A stretch of 20,631 nucleotides of DNA, taken from an uncultured Planctomycetaceae bacterium. Lineage in GTDB: Bacteria; Planctomycetota; Planctomycetia; Pirellulales; Pirellulaceae. Under the pieces are notes generated by a model that worked only from the letters and a program-made list of their open reading frames with translations, made no database searches and was not told the DNA's origin. Below are positions 5,780-20,631 of the stretch, piece after piece. The stretch is from NCBI GenBank assembly GCA_903927685.1, contig CAIYOB010000160.1, positions 1 to 20,631 of the forward strand, written 5' to 3'. A program made the position numbers and the translations under genes. Positions within the stretch are counted from its first letter, which is position 1; every line of letters starts with the position of its first letter.

Positions 5780-7180
5780 TCACGCCAGCAGTTTCTGTAC
5801 CGACTGGACGTCGACAGCCGCGGGAGAGATCGCTCCTTGAGCCGCGATGGCGGCGGCGGCTCCGGCGGCGGCGCCGATCGCCAGGGCGATGCATTGGACG
5901 CGGTACGAGGCGTGGGCGTCGTGGCTGCCGCTGATGCAGCGGCCGGCCAGCAGCAGGCCATCGGTGTCCCGCGGGACCAGGCAGCCGTAGGGAATGCCGT
6001 AGGGCTTGACGGCGGCGGCGGCGCCTTGTACGCCGTGGGCCTGGCCTTCCGCCTGGCCGCTGCCGGCCGGGTTGTGGATGTCGATCGGGAAGCTGGCGTT
6101 GCGGACCACGGCAGCGGGCCAGGACTTGCCTGCCAGCAAGTCGTCGCGGGTCAGATACGCGCGGCCCAGAAACCGCCGCGTCTCGCGGACGCCGATCACG
6201 GCCGGCATGATGGCGATGTGCGCCGCCTCGTACCCCGGCGCGTGTTTGTGGAGGAAGTCCAGCACCAGGTAGGCCTGCCGCCGCCCGTCCAGTTCGGCCC
6301 GCGTCAAGTCATCCGCGTTCGTGCCGTCGACGGCGTTGACTTGCGTCGCGTTGACGATTCGCTCGCCCGGCCGCTGGGTGCGGTACAAGCGGATCACGCC
6401 GATTGTCGTCGCCAGTTCGCCCGTCTGCTGGCCGCGGGTCACGACTTCCTCCCAAGTGCCTTCCGGCACCCGGATCTTGCGCGCTTCCTGTTCGCTGCCG
6501 CAGGCCAAGGCCCGGGTTTCGTCGACGCCGGCCAGCCGGTACATGATCGAGACCGGCTGGACCAGTCCGTCGCCGGGCCGACCCTGCTCGAACGCGGCGC
6601 CAGCCGACAGAGCCACGTCGCCGTCGCCGGTCGCATCGACGGTCACCGAGGCCTGGACCGGCAGCGGGCCGCCCTTGGTCAACAGCGTCGCACCGGTCAC
6701 GCATTGGCCTTCCCGGGTCGCCGACACCGCCCAAGCGTGCAGCAGCAGTTCGGCGCCCGACTCCTGGACCAGATCGGCGTACTCCAAGTCCAGGCGATTC
6801 GGGTCGGCCTGGCGGCCGCCGATTCGACGCAGTACCTCGGCGACGAAGGGACTGTCCGAGTGGCCCAGCAGCGGACCGACCAGCCCGTGGACGGCCATCC
6901 CGCCCAAGCGGCCGTAGCGTTCCACCAACAGCACTTTGGCTCCTTGGCGCGCGGCCAGCACCGCGGCCGCCACGCCGGCGGGACCGCCACCGCAAACCAG
7001 GACGTCGACGCGGCGCGTTTTCAGGGCCGCGCCGGCGACGTGGCTGACGTCCTGCGGGGTGGGTTCGGCGGGCTCCGCCCCTGCGGCCGCGCCGGCGCAG
7101 CCAGCCGCGAGAACGCCCGCTCCCTGGAGAAACCGCCGGCGCGTTGGCAGCATCAGACGCTGAACATTGGGAATGCTCAT
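5780..7180 (-). CDS. Tat-exported FAD-dependent oxidoreductase
   Basis: This protein has 466 residues. The N-terminus carries a twin-arginine signal (TRRRFLQGAG, residues 13-22) followed by an Ala-rich hydrophobic stretch, so the folded flavoprotein should be exported. The FAD-binding Rossmann motif is DVLVCGGGPAG (59-69), with the strand-two acidic end VERYGRLGG at 86-94. The middle holds DATGDGD (182-188), GVRETR (330-335) and LLLAGRCIS (409-417) followed by SYRVQ. These are the hallmarks of the PF12831 FAD_oxidored family, common in planctomycetes. Its substrates are mostly unknown, but members are often linked to sugar or polyol oxidation. ATG 7180 has AAGGA about 11 bases upstream; an alternative ATG at residue 10 would also keep the Tat motif. 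The gene is monocistronic and divergent from the propeller/TPR gene. The true substrate cannot be read from the sequence. Confidence 0.88.
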   Translation of the reverse strand: MSIPNVQRLMLPTRRRFLQGAGVLAAGCAGAAAGAEPAEPTPQDVSHVAGAALKTRRVDVLVCGGGPAGVAAAVLAARQGAKVLLVERYGRLGGMAVHGLVGPLLGHSDSPFVAEVLRRIGGRQADPNRLDLEYADLVQESGAELLLHAWAVSATREGQCVTGATLLTKGGPLPVQASVTVDATGDGDVALSAGAAFEQGRPGDGLVQPVSIMYRLAGVDETRALACGSEQEARKIRVPEGTWEEVVTRGQQTGELATTIGVIRLYRTQRPGERIVNATQVNAVDGTNADDLTRAELDGRRQAYLVLDFLHKHAPGYEAAHIAIMPAVIGVRETRRFLGRAYLTRDDLLAGKSWPAAVVRNASFPIDIHNPAGSGQAEGQAHGVQGAAAAVKPYGIPYGCLVPRDTDGLLLAGRCISGSHDAHASYRVQCIALAIGAAAGAAAAIAAQGAISPAAVDVQSVQKLLA

Positions 7181-7379
7181 AGGCGTGACTGTCCTTCAGG
7201 TCCTGGGTACTCGGCACGGATTCGTTCCCCCAGTGGACTGTGCCCACTGGGCGTCGTCAAGGGACGTGGTCAGCCCCGCTTCCGATCGCTTGCCCCCATC
7301 CCGGCTAGGCCTTAAGATACAGGGGCTATCCACGGGACCAGGCGTCCCTCGCAACGTTACATCCATCAGGGAACATCGC
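7181..7379. promoter_or_regulatory. Divergent intergenic region between FAD oxidoreductase and propeller/TPR gene
   Basis: These 199 bases separate two divergent starts. They contain an 8-base perfect inverted repeat, cccagtgg (7229-7236) and ccactggg (7244-7251), with a 7-base spacer. That could be an operator for either gene or an mRNA hairpin in the oxidoreductase leader. No RNA gene or small ORF with a ribosome site was seen. Confidence 0.4.
7290..7318 (+). promoter_or_regulatory. Putative promoter of the propeller/TPR - voltage-sensor operon
   Basis: TTGCCC (7290-7295) and TAAGAT (7313-7318) are spaced by 17 bases. Each matches the -35 or -10 consensus at four of six positions. Transcription would begin near 7325, leaving a leader of about 55 bases that includes AGGGA seven bases before ATG 7380. 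Confidence 0.3.
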
Positions 7380-10300
7380 ATGAAAGTCGCCCATGCCGCC
7401 AGCCGGGACCGGGTCCGACGGAGCCTCTGCGGGGCTTGGCTGGTGATCATCAGCGGGACCTGCAGCGTGTGGGGGCAAGCGGACCGCGAGTCCGCGTTGC
7501 AGAACGTCTTTCAGTCCGCTCCCAGCGACGTGCGGCGGCCGTTGATGTACGCGGAAAAGGCGATCGAGGAGGGGCGGTACAGCGACGCGGCGCAGAAGCT
7601 GGGCCAGTTGTTGATGAACGAATCGCTGGAGGACCCCGAGGCGCAGGACTACTTCTTGATCGAGGGCGAGGAAGGTCAGGCGGCTCTGGTCACCGAACGG
7701 CTGAAGGCCAAGGCCCAGCGGATGATCGCCGACCTGCCGCCGCAGGGCCGGCAGGCCTACGAGCTGCAGTTCGGCGCACAGGCCCGGGCGTTGCTGGAGG
7801 AAGCCCTGGCCCAGGGCGACGAGCAGAAGTTGGGCGACGTCATCCGGCGGTTCTTTCACACCCGGGCGGGCTATGATGCCTGCCTGCTGGCGGGACGCAG
7901 CGAATTGGCCCAGGGCCGTCCCCTAGCCGCCGCTTTGCATCTGCAGCGATTGGCCGAAGCCCCGGCCGCGGTCGCGGCCTTCGATCCGGAATTGTCGCTG
8001 TTGCTGGCGACCTGCTGGTGGTACGGCCGGGCGCCAGAGCAGGCGCGCGCAGTCCTGCTGGGACTCAAGTCGCGTCTGCCGCGGGCGGCCGTGCGGGTGG
8101 GCGGCCGCGAGGTGACCTTGTTTCCGGACGACAGCCAGGCCCTGACGTGGCTCGCAGGACTCGTCGGTCCCGCGGGCGGTTTGCCGGCCCCGGAGATCCA
8201 GCAGTGGACGCTGTTTCGAGGCAATTCGCAGCGTAATGCCAAGACGCGCGGCAGCCTGCCGATGATGAACTATCGCTGGCTGGTGCCGACCACCATCGAT
8301 CGGGAGGACGAGAAGGTCGTCGAGCGGCTGGCGCGCCAGTACCGCGACGAGGGCCGGGCGGCGATCCCGGCGCTGCAGCCCCTGGCGGTGGGCAATGTCG
8401 TGGTTATGCGGACGCCCGGCAAGCTGCTGGGCGTCGACTTTGCCAGCGGCAAGCGGATCTGGGTTTGGCCGCCGTGGGAGGATGACTCGGGCGACATGGT
8501 CCAGGGCGAAATGAGCCGCTTTCGCCTGGCCGTGCTGGGGGACCGCGACCAGGAGTTGCAGCAGCGGATCTGGGACGACGCCCTGTACGGTCAGATCAGC
8601 AGCGACGGCCAGTCGGTGTTCGTCTTGCACGAGTTGGGCTTTGCCCTCAGTTCGAGCGTTGCCGCGCGGCAGCTGATTATCGCCCAGGGCGGGCTCGCTT
8701 TGCGGCAGCCGGGCCTGCCGCAGTCCAGCAACCAGCTGGTCTCGCTGAGCCTGGCGCGGGAAAGCGCGGCGCAGTGGATCGTGGGTGGCGAGAGCGGCGA
8801 GGATGAGCCCAAGCTGAAGGACGCTTTCTTCCTGGGCCCGCCGCTGCCGGTGCAGGGCAGCCTGTATGCGATCGCGGAATTCAGCGGCGAGATCCGCCTG
8901 GTCGTGCTGGAGGCCAAGACGGGGCGGTTGCAGTGGCAGCAACAGCTGGCGAACGCGGAGAACCGCACGATCCAGACGGATCCCTCGCGGCGACTGAACG
9001 GTGCGACGCCTTCGTACGCCGGCGGCGTGCTGGTCTGCCCCACCTCGGCCGGGGCCGTGGTGGCCGTCGACGTCGTCACGCGGTCGCTGCTGTGGGGATT
9101 CCAGTTTGACGAACAGCCGGAGGGCCAGCGGCAACAGCTGTTCTTCGGCATGTCGCCCCTGGCGGGTTTGCCGTTGCGGCCGGTCGGGGCGCGGTGGGCC
9201 GATACGACGGTCACAATCGCCGACGGCCGCGTACTGGTCACGGCGGCCGAGTCCGATCGGCTGTACTGCCTGGACGTCCGCACGGGACAACTGGCTTGGC
9301 CGGCACAGGAGCGGGACGGCCGCCTGTACCTGGCGTGCGTTCACGAGGGGCAAGCCGTTTTTGCCGGAGTCAACGGTGTGTCGGCGATCCGCCTGTCGGA
9401 CGGCCAGCCGGCTTGGCCTGGTCCGGTGGAACTGAGCGATCCGCCCAGCGGCCGAGGGTTTTACAGCGACCAGTTTTATTACCTGCCCACCCTGGGCGCC
9501 GAGCTGCTGAAGATCGATCTGGCCAAGGGCGAGATTGTCCAGCGGACGCCCACGTCGCTGGTGCTCGGCAACCTGATCTCCTTTCGCGACGAGATCCTGT
9601 CGCAAGGACCGGAGTGCCTGTCCGTGTTCTGGCAAAGCGAGCCGTTGCGGCGGCTCGTCGAAAAGACGTTGGCCGAGAAACCCGACGACGTCACGGCGCT
9701 GGCCCGCCACGGCGAACTGCTGTTGCAGGACGGGAAGCGTCCGCAAGCGATCGAGACCTTCCGCAAGGCCCGCCAGTTGGCACCCGACGACGAGACCGTG
9801 CGGCTCCTGTTCAGCAACGCGCTCCTGGCGGCGCTGCGGGAGGATTTTGCCGGTTCGCAGGCTTGCATCCCGGAACTCGAACAGCTGCTCGATCGCCCGT
9901 CCCAGCAGAGCGAGTACCTGCGCATCATGGCCAGCGGCTGGCAACGTCAAGGCGCCTATCCGCAGGCCTTTGCCGCGTATCTGGAATTGGCCAAGTTGCG
10001 AGCCGATCTGCAACACAGCGGAGGCGGCGGGGAGATCGAACTGGAGCGGGTGGAGCGCAATTGGAGCATCCGCGCGGACCTGTGGCTGCAGGCCCGCATC
10101 GGCGAGCTGCTGCAGGCGGCTGGCGGCGAGGACCGGGCGGCGATGGACCACACGATCCAGCAGGCCTTGGACCAGGCGCTGGCCGGCGACGACGTGTCGG
10201 CGTTGCGCCGCGCGGAACGTCTGTTCGGGACACACACCCGGGCTGACGAAGTCCGTCTGGCGCTGGCGCGGCGACTGGTCAAGACCGGCGAATTCCTGGA

Positions 10301-12053
10301 GGCGGAACTGCTGCTCAGCCGGCTGGAGGAATCCGGCCAGCCAACCCTGCGGGCCGCGGCGGTGGCCGAGTTGGCGGACCTGCTGGTACAGGCGCGGCAG
10401 TACGACGTGGCCTGGCGCTACTATCGCACGCTGGCCGAGCAATACGGGGACACGGTCTGCCGCGATGGCCAGACCGGCCGGCAGCTGTCGGCGCAGGCAC
10501 TCGAGACGCCGGCGCTCCGCGCAGCCAGCGCGCTGACCCGGCCTTGGCCGTACGGCAAGTCCGAAGTCAGCGAATCGCAGGACGGCGCCCGCCAGAGTAT
10601 CAGCTACCGCCGGGTCCACGCTTTTGCGGAACGGCAGAAGTGCGGCGCGTATCCGACAGGCTTGACGGTGTTCTACGACCAGACCCGGAATGCCATCCTG
10701 ATCCAGGACGGCGGCGGCAACGGAATCCTGAACGTCAGCCTGGGCAGCCACAAGGTGACCGCGACCGATTTCAGTCCCCTGCATTTCCGCGTGCGCGGTC
10801 ACCTGCTGTTGGTCTCGTTGGGTGCAGAGGTGGTGGCGGTGGATTTGCTGCAGACCGTCGGGGCCGCCGGTCGGCCGGCGGAGGCCGTGCTCTGGCGTCG
10901 CGATCTGGTGCGGGCCAATGTGGCCAGCAGCATGTACCAGATCCAACTGCAGGTCCAGCCGCTGCTGCACCCTTGGGGCCGGAGCCGGCAGGCGTTTGCC
11001 ACTCCGCAGAAGGAACTGGTAGGCGCGACCGGGCCGCTGCTGGCATCGGCCACGTATTTCATCGAGGGCCGCGCGCTGATCTGCGCCGATCCGCTGACCG
11101 GCGAGACGCTGTGGTCCCGCGAGGGCCTGCCCGCCGGATCCGACGTGTTCGGCGATGGCGAGTGGATCTTTGTCGTGCCGCCGGGCGGTGCCCAGGCGCT
11201 GGTCTTTCACGCCTTGGACGGTGCTCAGGCCGAGTCCCGGCCCAGCGAACCGCTGGCCAACCGCTGGACGACGCAGGGCCGCCTTGTGCTGGCGTGGAAG
11301 CCGAAGGCCGCGGTCAGCCAGCCTGGAGCGGACGCGGCCGACCCGACGGCCAATGCCGCCCCGCCACAGTTGCCGCACGAGTTGTGGCTGTACGATGCGC
11401 TGACGGGTCAAGAGATCTGGCGCGAGGCGTTGCCCTCCGGCACCCGTGGCATGCTGGTCGACAGCGACGCAGTCGCCTTGCTGCAGCCCGACGGGCGACT
11501 GGCCGTGCGTTCGCTGTCCGCAGCGGAGCCGGTCTTCGAGGCCAAGCTGAACCCGGAAGAGAACCTGCGCTCGGTGCACGTCCTGCGGTCGCAGGACCAG
11601 TATCTGGTCGCCACCAATCGCATCGACCCGCTGCCGGCCAATCACCCGCCGATCCAGATCCGCTCGATCACCAGCGGCGGCGAGGTTCCCCTGGTGACCG
11701 GCCTGCTGTACGCGTTCGACCGCCGCACCGGTCAGCCCAGCTGGCCCGCCCCCGTGGCCGTCGAACAGTTCGGCCTGCCCATGGACCAGCCGCGCGAGAC
11801 GCCGGTCCTGTTGCTGCTGCGGCAGTTCGCTCCGGCGGCGGCGCAAGGACCGCGCCGCGAACAGACGTCGGTCCTGTGCCTGGACCGGCGGGATGGCAAG
11901 CCGCTGTTGGACAAGCCCGATGTGCCGTCCCAGGCCAACGTGTTTGAGCTGCTCGCCGACCGCAGCAAGCAGACGGTGACGATCAACCTGCCGGCCCAAA
12001 CGTTCGTGATCACGCTCAGCGACGCGACTTCGCCGACTGCGACCAACGAATAG
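7380..12053 (+). CDS. Exported PQQ-like beta-propeller and TPR protein, 1557 residues
   Basis: ATG 7380 was chosen because AGGGA lies seven bases upstream and the start opens a signal peptide (basic MKVAHAASRDRVRRS, then hydrophobic LCGAWLVIISGTCSVWG). Residues ~49-90 look like a TPR (MYAEKAIEEGRYSDAAQKL). A first propeller spans ~290-745 and shows the PQQ/quinoprotein repeat signature: GVDFASGKRIWVW (from residue 350), LEAKTGRLQWQQQ, VVTRSLLWGF, LDVRTGQLAW. Clear TPRs follow at ~760-830, continuing as helical repeats to ~1060. A second propeller lies at ~1085-1540 (CADPLTGETLW, YDALTGQEIW, FDRRTGQPSW). The Trp-docking repeats are those of BamB-like and PQQ-enzyme folds, but none of the PQQ-dehydrogenase catalytic residues can be pointed out. 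A scaffold or sensor role is more likely than catalysis. It is followed after 7 nt by the voltage-sensor-like gene, so the two are probably co-transcribed. Confidence 0.88.
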   Translation: MKVAHAASRDRVRRSLCGAWLVIISGTCSVWGQADRESALQNVFQSAPSDVRRPLMYAEKAIEEGRYSDAAQKLGQLLMNESLEDPEAQDYFLIEGEEGQAALVTERLKAKAQRMIADLPPQGRQAYELQFGAQARALLEEALAQGDEQKLGDVIRRFFHTRAGYDACLLAGRSELAQGRPLAAALHLQRLAEAPAAVAAFDPELSLLLATCWWYGRAPEQARAVLLGLKSRLPRAAVRVGGREVTLFPDDSQALTWLAGLVGPAGGLPAPEIQQWTLFRGNSQRNAKTRGSLPMMNYRWLVPTTIDREDEKVVERLARQYRDEGRAAIPALQPLAVGNVVVMRTPGKLLGVDFASGKRIWVWPPWEDDSGDMVQGEMSRFRLAVLGDRDQELQQRIWDDALYGQISSDGQSVFVLHELGFALSSSVAARQLIIAQGGLALRQPGLPQSSNQLVSLSLARESAAQWIVGGESGEDEPKLKDAFFLGPPLPVQGSLYAIAEFSGEIRLVVLEAKTGRLQWQQQLANAENRTIQTDPSRRLNGATPSYAGGVLVCPTSAGAVVAVDVVTRSLLWGFQFDEQPEGQRQQLFFGMSPLAGLPLRPVGARWADTTVTIADGRVLVTAAESDRLYCLDVRTGQLAWPAQERDGRLYLACVHEGQAVFAGVNGVSAIRLSDGQPAWPGPVELSDPPSGRGFYSDQFYYLPTLGAELLKIDLAKGEIVQRTPTSLVLGNLISFRDEILSQGPECLSVFWQSEPLRRLVEKTLAEKPDDVTALARHGELLLQDGKRPQAIETFRKARQLAPDDETVRLLFSNALLAALREDFAGSQACIPELEQLLDRPSQQSEYLRIMASGWQRQGAYPQAFAAYLELAKLRADLQHSGGGGEIELERVERNWSIRADLWLQARIGELLQAAGGEDRAAMDHTIQQALDQALAGDDVSALRRAERLFGTHTRADEVRLALARRLVKTGEFLEAELLLSRLEESGQPTLRAAAVAELADLLVQARQYDVAWRYYRTLAEQYGDTVCRDGQTGRQLSAQALETPALRAASALTRPWPYGKSEVSESQDGARQSISYRRVHAFAERQKCGAYPTGLTVFYDQTRNAILIQDGGGNGILNVSLGSHKVTATDFSPLHFRVRGHLLLVSLGAEVVAVDLLQTVGAAGRPAEAVLWRRDLVRANVASSMYQIQLQVQPLLHPWGRSRQAFATPQKELVGATGPLLASATYFIEGRALICADPLTGETLWSREGLPAGSDVFGDGEWIFVVPPGGAQALVFHALDGAQAESRPSEPLANRWTTQGRLVLAWKPKAAVSQPGADAADPTANAAPPQLPHELWLYDALTGQEIWREALPSGTRGMLVDSDAVALLQPDGRLAVRSLSAAEPVFEAKLNPEENLRSVHVLRSQDQYLVATNRIDPLPANHPPIQIRSITSGGEVPLVTGLLYAFDRRTGQPSWPAPVAVEQFGLPMDQPRETPVLLLLRQFAPAAAQGPRREQTSVLCLDRRDGKPLLDKPDVPSQANVFELLADRSKQTVTINLPAQTFVITLSDATSPTATNE

Positions 12054-12060
12054 AGCGACG

Positions 12061-13113
12061 ATGGCTCCGACTCGACCGTCTGACTCGCAGGTGCGCGTGA
12101 CCCGGCTGGACCGCCGGACGGGGCCGTGCATGTTTTGGGTTTCGTTCGCGTTCCTGGCCATCCTGGCGGGCATGCTCTGTTCATTCTCGATCGAAGTCAC
12201 CGCCCTGGCGCGATTTGTTCCCGGGGCGGCGACCGCGGGGCCTGGCCAGGCCCCGGCCCCAAGTGGACGCTCGCCCGCCAGCGTCGCTCCGCCGGCCACC
12301 GAGGACGAGCACGAGATCCCGATCGACCACGCGGTGCGCCCGCTGCAACGGTTTGCCGGCTGGCTGGCGCTGCTGTACGCGGCGATCCTGACGGAGACCG
12401 TGGCCCAGGCCTGGGCCAACGCCTACGGCTGGCGGCGGCATCTGTGGTATTGCTTGATCCCGCCCCTGCGGATGGGCGGCCGCGACCACGTCGACGGCAC
12501 CGCCATCTGGCTGCCTCACCTCGGCTGGCATTGCGTCGACCGCCATCTGCAGACCCGGCTGGAAAAGGCGTTCAGCGGGCCGATGATCCTGATCGCCTTG
12601 GCCGTGCTGCCCCTGTTCGCATTAGATTGGCATTGGCATAACCAGGCGGTGTCACCCAGTTGGTCCATGCTGATCTTCCTGTGGGGCAGCGAGAGCCTGA
12701 TCTGGCTGGCCTTTGCACTCGAGTTCGTGATCATGTTTTCCGTCTCGCCGAAGAAACTCCGCTATTGCCGCGACCATTGGGTGGATCTGGTCATCATCTT
12801 GGCGCCGTTGGCCGGCTTTCTGCGACTGCTCCGCGTGGCCCGTGCGATGCGGTTGTCGACGGTCACCCGCGCGGCGCGGGCGTATCGGCTGCGGGGCCTG
12901 AGCCAGAGGATGTTCCGCGGCCTGCTGCTGGTCAACCTGGTCCGGCAGTTCATGGAGGGCGATCCGGCCAAGCGACTGGTCAAACTGCGGGAAGAGCTGC
13001 GGGACCGGGAGCAGGATCTGGAACAATTGCGGGCCGAGATCGCCAACCTGGAGGCGCGGCTGGCCGCCGAGGAACAGGATCCGCCGGGCGCGAAAAGTCA
13101 GCCCGGTGATTAG
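12061..13113 (+). CDS. Pore-less voltage-sensor-like membrane protein with C-terminal coiled coil
   Basis: This protein has 350 residues. Two N-terminal hydrophobic helices (~22-45 and ~98-120) flank an Ala/Pro linker (52-80). Four further segments resemble a voltage-sensing domain. S1 is ~174-192 with D189. S2 is ~203-227 with E211, F218 and E221 at the Shaker E283/F290/E293 spacing. S3 is ~240-252 with D242. S4 has R255, R258, R261 and R264 (FLRLLRVARAMRL), then R270, R273, R276 and R278. No K+-filter motif or pore helix follows. Instead ~303-338 is a heptad coiled coil (L306, L309, L313, L320, L323, I327, L330, L334). VSD plus coiled coil without a pore is the plan of Hv1 proton channels, but the RxWRxxRxxN signature is not present. 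D242 and R255 are only 13 residues apart, so the S3-S4 turn would be extremely tight. It could also be a pore-deleted relative of a bacterial K+ channel. The ATG lies 7 nt after the upstream stop, with only weak Shine-Dalgarno matching. Confidence 0.7.
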   Translation: MAPTRPSDSQVRVTRLDRRTGPCMFWVSFAFLAILAGMLCSFSIEVTALARFVPGAATAGPGQAPAPSGRSPASVAPPATEDEHEIPIDHAVRPLQRFAGWLALLYAAILTETVAQAWANAYGWRRHLWYCLIPPLRMGGRDHVDGTAIWLPHLGWHCVDRHLQTRLEKAFSGPMILIALAVLPLFALDWHWHNQAVSPSWSMLIFLWGSESLIWLAFALEFVIMFSVSPKKLRYCRDHWVDLVIILAPLAGFLRLLRVARAMRLSTVTRAARAYRLRGLSQRMFRGLLLVNLVRQFMEGDPAKRLVKLREELRDREQDLEQLRAEIANLEARLAAEEQDPPGAKSQPGD

Positions 13114-14270: not shown

Positions 14271-15644
14271 TTGCGAGCCCAGACGTTGAACGAACCCCAA
14301 CCGACGCCCCCTGCCGTCCGCGGCTCCCGGCCGCTGGAAGCGCCAGCCGCGGCGCAGCGCTTCTGGCTGTGGGTGCTGGCAACGCTGCAGTTTCCCGTCC
14401 GGCAGCCAGCTGCCGGCAGCTACGAATTCAGCGTGCCGTTGGACCAGCGGGACGATTTCGGCGGGCGGGAAGTGGTGAGCTTCACCTGGGGGCCGGCCGT
14501 CGGTCAAGCGGCTGCGGGGACGGACAACCGTGCCGAAGTCCTGACCGCGGGTGCGCCGCTGGGCGCGCAATTGCTGGCGTGCCTCAAGCGGCTGGGGATG
14601 GTGGTCCACGCAGCGCCGCGAGGTCAGCCCGTCAGTATTCACGAGCTGGCGCCGCACCTGTTCACGCCTTACCGGGTGGAAGGCGGCTCGGTGCGGCTGA
14701 GCGGCTGCAGCTTGGAGGACCGGCCGCTGCTGCGCTTCTCGTACGCGGTCCACAGCGGCGGCGAGAGCGGCCTGCGGGTGGAGCACGTCTACGCTTCGGC
14801 CCAGCAACAGCCCCTCGAGGACGAACTGCTGGCCGCGTTGCGGGTCGAGGACTTGATCCCCTTCGAAGGCCGGCCGCCGCGAGTTGCCGAGGCGGACGTG
14901 GCCAGTTGGCTGGCGCTGGGCGAGCGGCAGGGGGCGCTGTTGGGCGGTGAGCGCCGCGCGGACTTCATGCTCACGACGGCCATCTGGTGCAAGCGGGCCA
15001 CCGGCAAGCTGTTGTTCGAATTGGGCGACAGTACGGCCGAACGCAGTTTCGACCTGTGGGCCCAGCAGCTGGTGGACGGCGCCGTCCCGCCTCCGCCGTT
15101 CCGCTGTGCGGCGACCGGCCGCGAGTCGTATCATCTGGCAACCACAGACGACGGCCGGATTACGGTCGCCGAGTCGTTGGCTCGCTGTGCTCAGTCGGGG
15201 CGGCGCGTGCTGGATTCCGAATTGGAGACCTGCGCCGTCACGGGCCAATGCGTGCTGAGCGAGTTCCTGAGCACGTGTTCAGTCTGCGGCGAGCGCGTTT
15301 TGGCCGGCGAACTGGTGACTTGCGTCCAGTGCCGCCAGCAGGTCAGTCCGCACGCCGTAACCGGCGGCCTATGCCGAGCCTGCCGATCGCTCCAGCCGGC
15401 AACGCCGGACGATCCGCGGCTGGCGCGGATCCTGGGCGAGTATCCCAAGCTGGACCGGTGGCGCCGCTGGCAGTTAGCCGAGACGGGCCGGGTCTACGTC
15501 TTGACGGCCCGCTCGTTGATGCGGCAATTGCTGTTAGTGCTGGACAAAGAAACCCTTCAGGCGGCGCGAATCGCCGAAGGTCTCCGCCTGGCCCGCGACT
15601 GGCCGGAGATTCCGCCAGCGCGGTGGGACGAATTCCTGGGGTGA
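14271..15644 (+). CDS. Unrecognised cytoplasmic protein with a tandem cysteine (zinc-ribbon-like) repeat
   Basis: This protein has 457 residues from TTG 14271, which has AAGGA 12 bases upstream. A second TTG at 14286 is possible; no ATG fits. There is no signal peptide or clear membrane segment. Residues ~30-275 form an unrecognised alpha/beta region. Residues ~277-372 carry cysteines at 279, 306, 321, 336, 339, 351, 354, 368 and 371. From C306 the spacing is exactly 15 residues three times, with consensus C-x-x-[STC]-G-x-x-V-L-x-x-E-[LF]-x-T. The last units gain CxxC pairs (CSVC, CVQC, CRAC), so zinc binding is likely. The tail (~385-457) is a conserved-looking helical domain. I cannot name the family. 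It is followed after 13 nt by the SDR gene, so the two form a probable operon. Confidence 0.75.
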   Translation: MRAQTLNEPQPTPPAVRGSRPLEAPAAAQRFWLWVLATLQFPVRQPAAGSYEFSVPLDQRDDFGGREVVSFTWGPAVGQAAAGTDNRAEVLTAGAPLGAQLLACLKRLGMVVHAAPRGQPVSIHELAPHLFTPYRVEGGSVRLSGCSLEDRPLLRFSYAVHSGGESGLRVEHVYASAQQQPLEDELLAALRVEDLIPFEGRPPRVAEADVASWLALGERQGALLGGERRADFMLTTAIWCKRATGKLLFELGDSTAERSFDLWAQQLVDGAVPPPPFRCAATGRESYHLATTDDGRITVAESLARCAQSGRRVLDSELETCAVTGQCVLSEFLSTCSVCGERVLAGELVTCVQCRQQVSPHAVTGGLCRACRSLQPATPDDPRLARILGEYPKLDRWRRWQLAETGRVYVLTARSLMRQLLLVLDKETLQAARIAEGLRLARDWPEIPPARWDEFLG

Positions 15645-17130: not shown

Positions 17131-20100
17131 TCAGCGGCTGTTCGCGTCCGCCAGATTGGCAGCCAGCAGGGAAAGCAATTCTTCTGCGACGTCGTCCTCG
17201 GCAGCGAACAGCTGGTCCGCCCCGGCGAGATCGGGGCGGCGCGACCAGGCTGGCCGGAAGCGGCGGGCAGGCAGCGGGTCGGACGCGCCTGCCAGATTCG
17301 AGGGCACCGGAGTTTCAGTGGACCGGCTCCGCCACAGTCCAGCTGCGTCATCCGCATCTGCCGCCCGGTCCCAACTCAGCGGCTGCTGCCGTTCCGACTG
17401 GCCGCCTGCAGCCAGCACCGCGGCGGCGCCGCCTTCGCCTTCACCGGCTGCCGCACTCTGATTCAGAACGTTGATGATGATCAGCAGGTCCACGGGCTGT
17501 AACCGGTTGTTCCCGTCGACGTCGTAGTAGTACTCGGGCACGGCGGGCGGGATCGGGTCGGGCGGCAGTTGGCTGCCCACGGCGTTGATCCGGTTGACGC
17601 CGATCAGGACGTCCAGCGGCGTGACGGCCCCCGACCGGTTGACGTCTTCGCGACGTTCCGGATTCTGATAGTCGGGCACCTCGGTGACGGTGATCGTCAC
17701 CGTGGCCGTGTCGGATTCGAATCCGAGCACGTCGCGGACGGAATAACGGAACGAGTCGCTGCCCGAAAAGTTGACGGCGGGCGTGTAGACGATCAAGCCG
17801 TTGTGGACCAGCGCCGTTCCCAGGGCGGGCGCGACGACGATCGCCAACGTGGCGGGGTCCACCGGCCGGCCGATGCCCAAGTCATTGCCGAGGACATTGA
17901 CATTGGCGATGGTGTCCTCCGGCGTCGTTGCGGCGTCGTCCAAGGCGAGCGGGCCCACCGTCGTAAAATCCCAGTCCTCCGGGCCGCTGATGCCGGCCGT
18001 GGGGTTGCCGCTGAGGTCCTCGAAGGCCCCCGGCGCGACCTCCACATAGTAACCCATGCGGCGTTCCAGCAGTGGAGCCGGATGGATGGCGACCGTTGGT
18101 CCGGAAACCGTTACCCGCGCGTCCGCCACGGGGAACGTCTGGAAGATCGAATGGTCGCCGGACCGCTTGATCACAATGTCACCCGAGCCCTTCTGGAGCG
18201 GTTGGTCGAACGTCAGCAACAGGCTGGCTTCGAGGACCACCCCGGACGCCTCGTCCGGCGGCGACAGGGCCAGCAGCGTCGGCGGCAAATCGGCGGCCGA
18301 AAAGTTCCAGGCGGACGCTCCGCTGATTCCGGCAAAGGCGTTCCCGGACACATCCTCGATCGCGCCGCTGCCGACTTCCACATAATAGGTCGTGTTGTCG
18401 GCCAGCACCGCGGACAGGTCCAGGGTGACCGTCGTCCCGGATACCGCCACGCGGCTACCGGGCACGGAGACGGTCTCCAGCGTCGCTCCGTCGCTGACGC
18501 TCTTGATCGTGACCTGGCCCGTGCCCGCCCGCACGGCCTCGTCAAAGACCAGCACCAGGTTCGCGTCCCAGGCGACCGCGGTCGCGTTATCGGCGGGCGC
18601 CAGACTGACCAACGTGGGCGGCGTGAAATCGCCGGTGGTGAAATTCCACGCCGTCGCGCCGCTGACCCCGGCATAAGCGTTGCCGGCCTGATCCTGAAAA
18701 GCTCCCGCAGCGACTTCGACATAGTAGCCGGTGCTCTCCAGCAGCGGCGCGACCGGATCGATCGTCGCGGTCATCCCCGCGACAGTCACGCGAGCGCTCG
18801 AGACGAGGATCGTCTCGACGACGGAGCCGTCGCTCGACCGCTTGATGACAATCGAGCCGGCGCCTTTCTGGATCGGCTCGCCAAACGCCAGGAGCAGATT
18901 CGCGGTCGGGGAGGTTCCGGTGGCGTTGTCGCGCGGCGTGAGCACCGTCACCAGCGGATTCAGCATGTCGATGCTGAACTCGGCTTGAGGCGTGTAGACC
19001 TGCTGCAGATTGCCCGCCAAGTCCCTGGCCCCCGTGACGCCGATCGTGATGTTCGCCGCGTCCAGGCCGCGGTCCGTGACGTCGTAGGTTACGGTCAGCG
19101 TATCGTTGGTGACCGTGGCTGCCGACCAGCTGACGGACGAATTGGACAGCGTCGGCGCCAGCCCGCCGGCGACCGCCGAGTTGCCGAAGACGAGCGTGGG
19201 CACGGTGGCTGTGGCCATCGTCTCGTTGAACACGACCGTGACAGCAAAGCTCGCCGTGCCGGCATCGAGATCGCTCACCAGCAGATCGCTGACCGCGACG
19301 CTCTGCACGACAGGCGGCTGGGCATCTTGCAGGTCCAGCGTGTATTCCGGCGCCTTGCCGCGACTGACCAACTCCGCCTGGGTGTGCGTATAGTCGCGGT
19401 CGTAGACCTGGATCACGTAGGTCCCGGCCTGGGTCACCGTCAAGGACTTGGTGTCACCCGCATCCAGTTCCTGGCCGACGGTTTCGCCGTTGGGCGCGTA
19501 CACGCGGGCCCGCGGTTTGTAGTCGACCGTGGTCTCGGAAGCCAGGGACAAACGGGCCGGGAACTGGCCTCCGCCTGCGGCCAAGCCGGCGGCCGAGACG
19601 GTCCAGGAGAACGTGTCGACCTCGCTCGCCAAGCCGATCGTCCCCGTCTTCGGCTGGCCCACGGCGAGCGTCACAGCATCCAGACTGGGCGGGCTGATGC
19701 CCTCCAGAGTCACGCCATAGTCCTCGCTGTTCGAATAATCGTAATCGTAGACCTGGATGACGTAGGTTCCCGTTTCGGCGGGCAGCTTGTAAATGACCTT
19801 GTTGCCGTTCTCGACCTCGTCCGACCCGCTCGTGCCCGGCAGCTTGGCGACTTTCTGGCCCGACGGCGAGTACAGTTCGGCCCACAATTCGGTACTCGAC
19901 CCCGGAACCAGGTCCGACAGACTTATCGTCACGATCCCGCCGCCCGCGGCGATGAACTTGTAGGCGTCCACGTCGCCGACCGCGATGTCGCCGGTCTTGG
20001 TGTCACCGATCGTCGCCAGCACGGCGTCGGTGCTGGCGGGGACCAAGCCTTCGAGCGCCAATTCGTAGTCGCCGACGGACGTGTAGTTCGCGTCGTAGAC

Positions 20101-20631
20101 CTGGATCACGTACTTGCCGGCGCCGAGCGATTCGGTCAGGACCTTGCTCCCCGCCGTGACCTGGCTGACCCGATTGCCGGTCGTGGCCGAATACAATTTG
20201 ACCTTGTCGCCGGCGGGCGAATACAGAACTGCGCGGCTGCCCGAGTGGGTCTCGGACAACGACAACGTGACAATGTTCCCCGCCGTCGCCGTGAAGGCGT
20301 ACTCGTCGACCTCTCCCAGCACGTCCAGCGACGCCGCTTTGCGTTCTCCCAAGGTGATCGCCTGGGCGTCCGCACTGGGCGGATTGATCCCTTCCAGCGC
20401 CAGGGCATACGTTCCCGTGTCCTGGTTGTCGTTGTCGCGGACGACGACGGCGTAGGTGCCGGCCGCCGTCAACGTGAACGTCTGCGAAGACCCTGCGTCA
20501 ATCTCGCTGCCCAGCCAGCTGCCGGAGGGCGCCTGGATCCGAGCCAGCGGCTGGAAGCCGCCCAGACCGGCGGACAATGACAAGGTGGCCACGTACTCGC
20601 CACCAGCGTCGGTCAAGTCCTGCGAGGTGAG
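17131..20631 (-). CDS. C-terminal 1166 residues of a giant secreted dockerin protein
   Basis: The frame runs open through the right edge, so the start is outside the window; an internal TTG at 20616 is not a credible start. In protein order there are four pre-peptidase-C-like beta domains (20631-~19320; the first is cut), each with VDxYxF-type and YVIQVYDxDY/LALEG motifs. An Ig-like domain (~19315-18970) begins [18 protein letters not shown]. Three SbsA-type Ig-like repeats (Big_5; ~18965-18625, ~18624-18290, ~18289-17955) start [18 protein letters not shown] and end AWNFTT. A cadherin/VCBS-like domain carries [20 protein letters not shown] (~17960-17690). A type I dockerin has [12 protein letters not shown] and [12 protein letters not shown] calcium loops (17646-17462). 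After an Ala/Gly-rich linker comes a short acidic tail ([17 protein letters not shown]). Dockerin-ended giants are typical planctomycete surface proteins; the catalytic or adhesive part, if any, lies off the window. Confidence 0.88.

Follow-up and report, generated by a model that had tools for sequence, protein, structure and literature searches.

The window analysed here, a stretch of 20,631 nucleotides from an uncultured planctomycete (contig CAIYOB010000160.1, assembly GCA_903927685.1), carries on its forward strand an open reading frame (ORF) of 350 residues with an ATG start (12061..13113) that encodes a voltage-sensor protein without a pore. Which role can a voltage-sensor domain (VSD) play in a bacterium when no channel is attached to it? 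An earlier note, made from the letters alone, had described this ORF with E211-x6-F218-x2-E221 in S2, D242 in S3 and four arginines and the motif LRLLRVAR in S4, all of which are present in the translation at these residues. E221 and D242 are separated by 21 residues, D242 and R255 by 13. We propose that the protein is a VSD derived from a K+ channel, that its pore was lost and that it may act as a stand-alone sensor of the membrane potential, probably as a coiled-coil dimer; we assign this reading a probability of roughly one half. The existence of the family itself was confirmed: pore-less VSD proteins are conserved across planctomycetes and are not a single case.

One database search returned 82 proteins, including that of the window. 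Seven of these (P0076–P0082) carry an Ion_trans_2 pore, and the match of P0075 covers a short stretch only. By profile search, strong full-length matches (E ≤ 1e-70) were found in 27 of 392 planctomycete genomes sampled across the phylum; at the same threshold they occur in 54 of 396 genomes of the order to which the nearest genome belongs and in 39 of 170 genomes of a second planctomycete order. The nearest named genome is that of Candidatus Anammoximicrobium (Pirellulaceae, about 70% identical). The full-length set used below comprises 159 members, the window protein included; planctomycete genomes contributed 72 of them and the protein database 87. These members are not independent, and reduction at 80% identity leaves a non-redundant set of 87, to which all fractions of 87 refer. 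Excluded were 44 of 203 pooled matches, namely fragments, pore-bearing channels, a shorter type (L059 and L060), two L066 paralogues and a gene in L049 that is broken by a stop codon. In the latter (L049:8286-9194, forward strand, genome G206) a TAA lies between S3 and S4, and the gene is either a pseudogene or an assembly error. Nine further members were inspected as sequence and kept out of the counts; of the 39 strong matches in the second order, sequences were read for these nine and for those that were part of the set. A search with the shorter relative L059 gave 60 proteins, of which 59 belong to a second pore-less group and the last, P0168, is a channel with a pore; two proteins of this second group are labelled Planctomycetota and one Phycisphaerales.

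A profile search against VSD families, as suggested by the earlier note, gave a divided answer: the window protein alone has no notable match in Pfam or NCBIfam, but 12 of 29 members match Pfam Ion_trans at E ≤ 0.01. The best of these matches covers the sensor half only (profile positions 3–124 of 241) and reaches 24.7 bits, the cut-off being 25. With phmmer, the window protein by itself finds Ion_trans/Ion_trans_2 channels among 5.8 billion sequences at E values of 8.8e-6 to 3e-4. Among solved structures it finds eight Shaker sequences (E 0.075–0.37) over residues 206–297, in an alignment that pairs F218, E221 and D242 with S2 and S3 of Shaker. HHalign aligned an S1–S4 profile of the family with 24 pore-bearing channels over 104 columns (probability 99.4, E 4.8e-21); since these 24 channels were chosen as weak matches of the family, independent support comes from the phmmer E values and the Ion_trans matches. 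Family profiles match solved Kv channels weakly (E 0.031 and about 2), and with profile A4 coiled coils dominate the matches to solved structures, Kv channels appearing only at E 2. Foldseek returned no match at E ≤ 0.001; the models of two members resemble VSDs most closely over S1–S3. No Hv1 and no voltage-sensing phosphatase is among the structural matches re-examined from Foldseek's own list, which is no independent test. Significant homology to known members of the VIC superfamily with its Kv-type VSDs was thus found and, as judged from sequence, S1–S4 are shown to be homologous to bacterial K+ channels, in line with the term 'pore-less K+-channel relative'.

As had been claimed, neither a pore helix nor a filter could be recognised. 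A pattern search for a GYG-type filter gave no hit in the 159 full-length members, and none of them has an S5-pore-S6 unit with selectivity filter as in a voltage-gated K+ channel. The part following R276 has a median length of 82 residues in these members. A hydropathy test for transmembrane-like 19-mers past R276 yielded one borderline segment in 4 of 159 members and in 1 of 59 proteins of the second group; the test is insensitive, recovering 3 to 5 of 6 helices in three control channels, each of which had at least one hydrophobic segment after S4. A pore encoded further downstream in the window was ruled out because a glycerophosphodiesterase (GDPD) gene on the minus strand begins at once. 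Many family members are labelled 'voltage-gated potassium channel' by one database source. Since they have no pore, they cannot be potassium channels on their own. Channel-like sequences with unusual filters were also seen. L062, L064, L067, L068, L070 and L071 are six-helix, channel-like proteins whose filter is without TVGYG (e.g. LQPTLGEP or VATEPMI) and whose C-terminal nucleotide-binding part looks RCK/TrkA-like by eye, and the channel-like relatives P0076, P0079, L065, L124 and L125 have a filter resembling T-x-x-G-S-x-YWP instead of TVGYG.

The charge-transfer centre of a VSD, formed by F and E in S2 and D in S3, is retained by the family. W215, F218 and P249 are invariant (87/87), and E221 and D242 are each found in 86 of the 87. 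Position 211, which had been taken for a sensor feature, is not conserved, with E in 17/87 and T in 45/87. High conservation extends beyond the centre: residue 112 is E in 83 members and D in 4, P134 and R137 of the cytosolic loop are present in all 87, W150 and W156 in 86 each, and R276 in 84; position 189 at the outer end of S1 is acidic in 80. In the second pore-less group E221, W240, D242, P249, R261 and R264 occur in all 59 proteins and F218 in 57. The distance from the aspartate to the proline of S3 is 7 residues, compared with 6 in Shaker, and the family has neither the linker nor the outer half of S3.

In S4 of the window protein, R255, R258, R261 and R264 are followed by a gap at 267 and by R270, R273 and R276. 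All seven charges between residues 250 and 276 lie in one phase, and 11 of 100,000 shuffles do as well. This three-residue ladder recurs across the non-redundant relatives, giving the basic residue at every third position that is expected of a VSD, in weakened form in some members. Arg and Lys are nearly confined to multiples of three counted from R276 or from P249; 581 of 598 S4 charges share one phase, and 77/87 sequences are wholly in phase. The span from P249 to R276 measures 18, 21, 24, 27, 30 or 33 residues in 82 members and falls off phase in the other five (28, 31, 34, 37 and 38). On a quick tree with many weak branches at least 16 changes in S4 length were counted, of which five break the phase; the 11 of 16 in phase correspond to P of about 0.004 if one third is expected. 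Between P249 and residue 266 there are 1 to 7 charges, most often 3 or 4 (58/87). At most two S4 charges were counted in 5/87 and at least four in 53/87, the window lineage having four. The third ladder position (R261) is Arg in only 6 of 26 genome-derived members, and the ladder is interrupted at 267, which is Gln in 59/87. Conservation among homologues, named beforehand as a check, hence holds for F218, E221 and D242 and for the greater part of the ladder, but neither for E211 nor for the ladder charges of a few members.

Two observations weigh against a working voltage sensor. A few members are without most of the S4 charges, L057 and L058 keeping one ladder arginine, and both AlphaFold models, calculated for two members, show S3 and S4 as a single continuous helix. 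The first would be accommodated by a degenerate VSD that serves as membrane anchor or docking scaffold, in which centre and arginines form salt bridges for folding and do not sense voltage. The range of 1 to 7 S4 charges fits this explanation as well, and so do the two L066 paralogues, which retain N-terminal module and coiled coil but no sensor residues, and the cytosolic loop, which is conserved as strongly as the sensor. However, the strict phase of the charges and the mostly in-phase length changes are difficult to account for unless the ladder slides or is stacked, and more than half of the members keep four charges or more. We therefore regard a scaffold without voltage sensing as unlikely.

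The second observation concerns the fold. A continuous S3–S4 helix had been named as a sign against the VSD assignment, and formally it is present in both models; but along S3–S4 the AlphaFold confidence score pLDDT drops from about 89 to a value near 50 in S4, and a continuous helix is at odds with how charge is distributed in the flanks. Loops on the cytosolic side are net positive, as is the region 267–300 in 87/87, and the flanks of the S3–S4 hairpin are net positive in 86/87 and 87/87. This bias sets the C-terminus in the cytosol, and therefore S4 should turn back. Taken literally, the two models would correspond to a different fold, a five-helix protein in which S3 and S4 are a single long helix and the coiled coil lies on the opposite side of the membrane. 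Their confidence is low in exactly this segment, the positive hairpin flanks argue against such a topology, and homologous pore-bearing channels have a similarly short S3–S4 connection (A3), through which HHalign aligns. A fold of this kind is thus considered highly improbable. The two extra N-terminal helices and the C-terminal coiled coil described in the earlier note are supported by the models: the former appear at residues 15–52 and 89–118, the latter as a confident helix (302–339). The leucine zipper of PKG-1 and other coiled coils match the family profiles weakly (E 0.015 to 0.09).

The main rival to a stand-alone sensor is that the sensor itself conducts protons or cations in a voltage-gated manner, as do Hv1 and Shaker cut off behind S4; when S4 moves, a water-filled path would open between the ladder arginines and the acidic residues. 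Behind the ladder lies the polar gap at 267, and Gln, Asn or Gly replace ladder arginines in many members. Exchanges of this type in S4 open gating-pore leaks. The same point is supported by PMC13095418. The anatomy of the family is that of a natural version of truncated Shaker, and the engineered construct (Shaker-iVSD), likewise a Kv-type VSD minus its pore, provides a precedent for a proton or cation leak, according to PMC5092046; unlike it, the family is natural and has an added N-terminal module and coiled coil. With Hv1 (TC 1.A.51) the family shares a pore-less sensor, probably likewise of four helices, a charge-transfer centre and, as modelled, a C-terminal coiled coil, but it has two extra N-terminal helices and no S3b or linker, and its sequence is nearer to Kv channels. 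The selectivity-filter aspartate of human Hv1 is D112 in S1. In the family, no acid is among the common residues at S1 positions 174–188 in the numbering of the window protein, and the sole conserved S1 acid is that at the outer end, position 189. The S4 signature RxWRxxRxxN of Hv1, in the form given by the earlier note, which had remarked on its lack, occurs in 0/159 members; its Trp is conserved in eukaryotic Hv channels according to PMC10377628. Moreover, the conserved cytosolic residues P134, R137, W150, W156 and R276 would be needless for a simple proton pore. Of the three readings offered before (proton channel, stand-alone voltage sensor, pore-less K+-channel relative), the last is borne out by homology, and the first finds no support in any Hv1-specific feature tested. 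A conductance is accordingly rather doubtful, if less so than a scaffold.

A stand-alone voltage sensor is, from the sequence evidence, the most likely function. S4 would turn back at P249–F253, and a change in voltage would slide its arginines past F218, E221 and D242. This movement may pass through the invariant RxYRLRG helix and reach both the coiled coil and the PPLR...IWLPxxGW loop, which is conserved and predicted to be cytosolic; from there the signal would go to a putative partner.

Bacterial short-linker K+-channel-like proteins with Ion_trans and Ion_trans_2 (e.g. P0082 and P0076) resemble the family in S1–S4 with IW-x2-F, in the short S3–S4 connection after the S3 proline, in the three-residue arginine ladder and in a short C-terminal coiled-coil-like tail. 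In contrast to the family they have S5-P-S6, and they are without the two N-terminal helices and the conserved cytosolic loop. Voltage-sensing phosphatases and SLC9C1 carry a phosphatase or exchanger domain, which is missing here; the window protein ends after the coiled coil, and no phosphatase domain was found in Pfam at E ≤ 1. TMEM266 is a further system for comparison. According to a 2023 review, known prokaryotic VSDs all come with a pore and Hv channels are absent from bacteria and archaea (PMC10377628); PMC13095418 states that VSD-based proton channels arose in eukarya. In the open-licence literature, preprints excluded and represented in part, no earlier report of a prokaryotic pore-less VSD was found. 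Tentatively, the members of the planctomycete family could be the first known prokaryotic stand-alone voltage sensors, with an S4 that varies mostly in three-residue steps of one charge, and possibly voltage-gated proton channels. Descriptions of pore-less sensors such as Hv1 and the voltage-sensing phosphatases place them in eukaryotes, a picture that a large planctomycete family would change. If the proposal is correct, the family would offer a natural S4 series of 1 to 7 charges, along which voltage sensing could be compared with S4 charge, and biophysical work on VSDs would gain small bacterial proteins. It also raises the question which membrane-potential signal planctomycetes read.

Table 1. 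Coordinates in the window of the gene for the pore-less voltage-sensor protein and of its predicted parts.
Feature	Position	Strand	Basis
Whole gene, pore-less voltage-sensor protein, 350 aa	12061..13113	+	ORF, translation, database relatives
N-terminal helix 1, residues 15–52	12103..12216	+	AlphaFold model
N-terminal helix 2, residues 89–118	12325..12414	+	AlphaFold model, family alignment
Conserved loop PPLRxGGRDH...IWLPxxGW...FSGP, residues 134–172, predicted cytosolic	12460..12576	+	Alignment, AlphaFold model, charge bias
S1 hydrophobic core, residues 174–192	12580..12636	+	Alignment; AlphaFold helix is 161–195
S2, residues 201–228	12661..12744	+	AlphaFold model
W215-x2-F218-x2-E221, S2 half of charge-transfer centre	12703..12723	+	Alignment; Shaker IIWFTFE aligned
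S3, residues 235–251, with D242 and P249	12763..12813	+	Alignment, Shaker alignment
S4, residues 253–276, arginine ladder	12817..12888	+	Alignment, charge phase; low-confidence AlphaFold, drawn continuous with S3
RAYRLRGL motif and amphipathic helix after it, residues 273–298	12877..12954	+	Alignment, AlphaFold model
C-terminal coiled coil, residues 302–339	12964..13077	+	AlphaFold model; weak leucine-zipper profile matches

The sensor gene starts 8 bp past the stop codon of a gene for a 1628-aa protein with PQQ beta-propeller and TPR (7167-12053, forward strand), and the GDPD gene follows directly downstream. The PQQ/TPR gene was rejected as a conserved operon partner, as no copy of it turned up in the 8 kb preceding the family gene of the Candidatus Anammoximicrobium locus (L001), and neighbours differ between lineages. 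Across 31 regions, the window plus 30 from genomes, each neighbour family is present in at most 9, and the nine regions with recurring neighbours share one local gene order. Because its neighbours vary, the sensor gene is best described as standing alone, which counts against an obligate subunit of an operon-encoded complex. An ORF of 457 aa (14271-15644, forward strand) has no confident Pfam match. Its homologue also adjoins the family gene in L001 (61% identity), and tblastn of the 1.5-kb flanks in L003–L031 gave none. On the minus strand, 17131-20616 holds a large surface-protein-like ORF with Big_5 repeats, Big_9, PPC and dockerin. An apparent fusion of the sensor to a giant protein in G903 was rejected, the 3,368-aa frame next to the gene being a stretch of N.

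The two L066 paralogues mentioned above are adjacent and divergent (L066:766-1719, minus strand, and L066:1811-2611, forward strand), and their genome, G284, also has a full copy. Neither has F218, D242 or the ladder any longer, and what remains is the N-terminal module with the coiled coil. They thus represent a natural control, according to which the N-terminal module can exist without the sensor.
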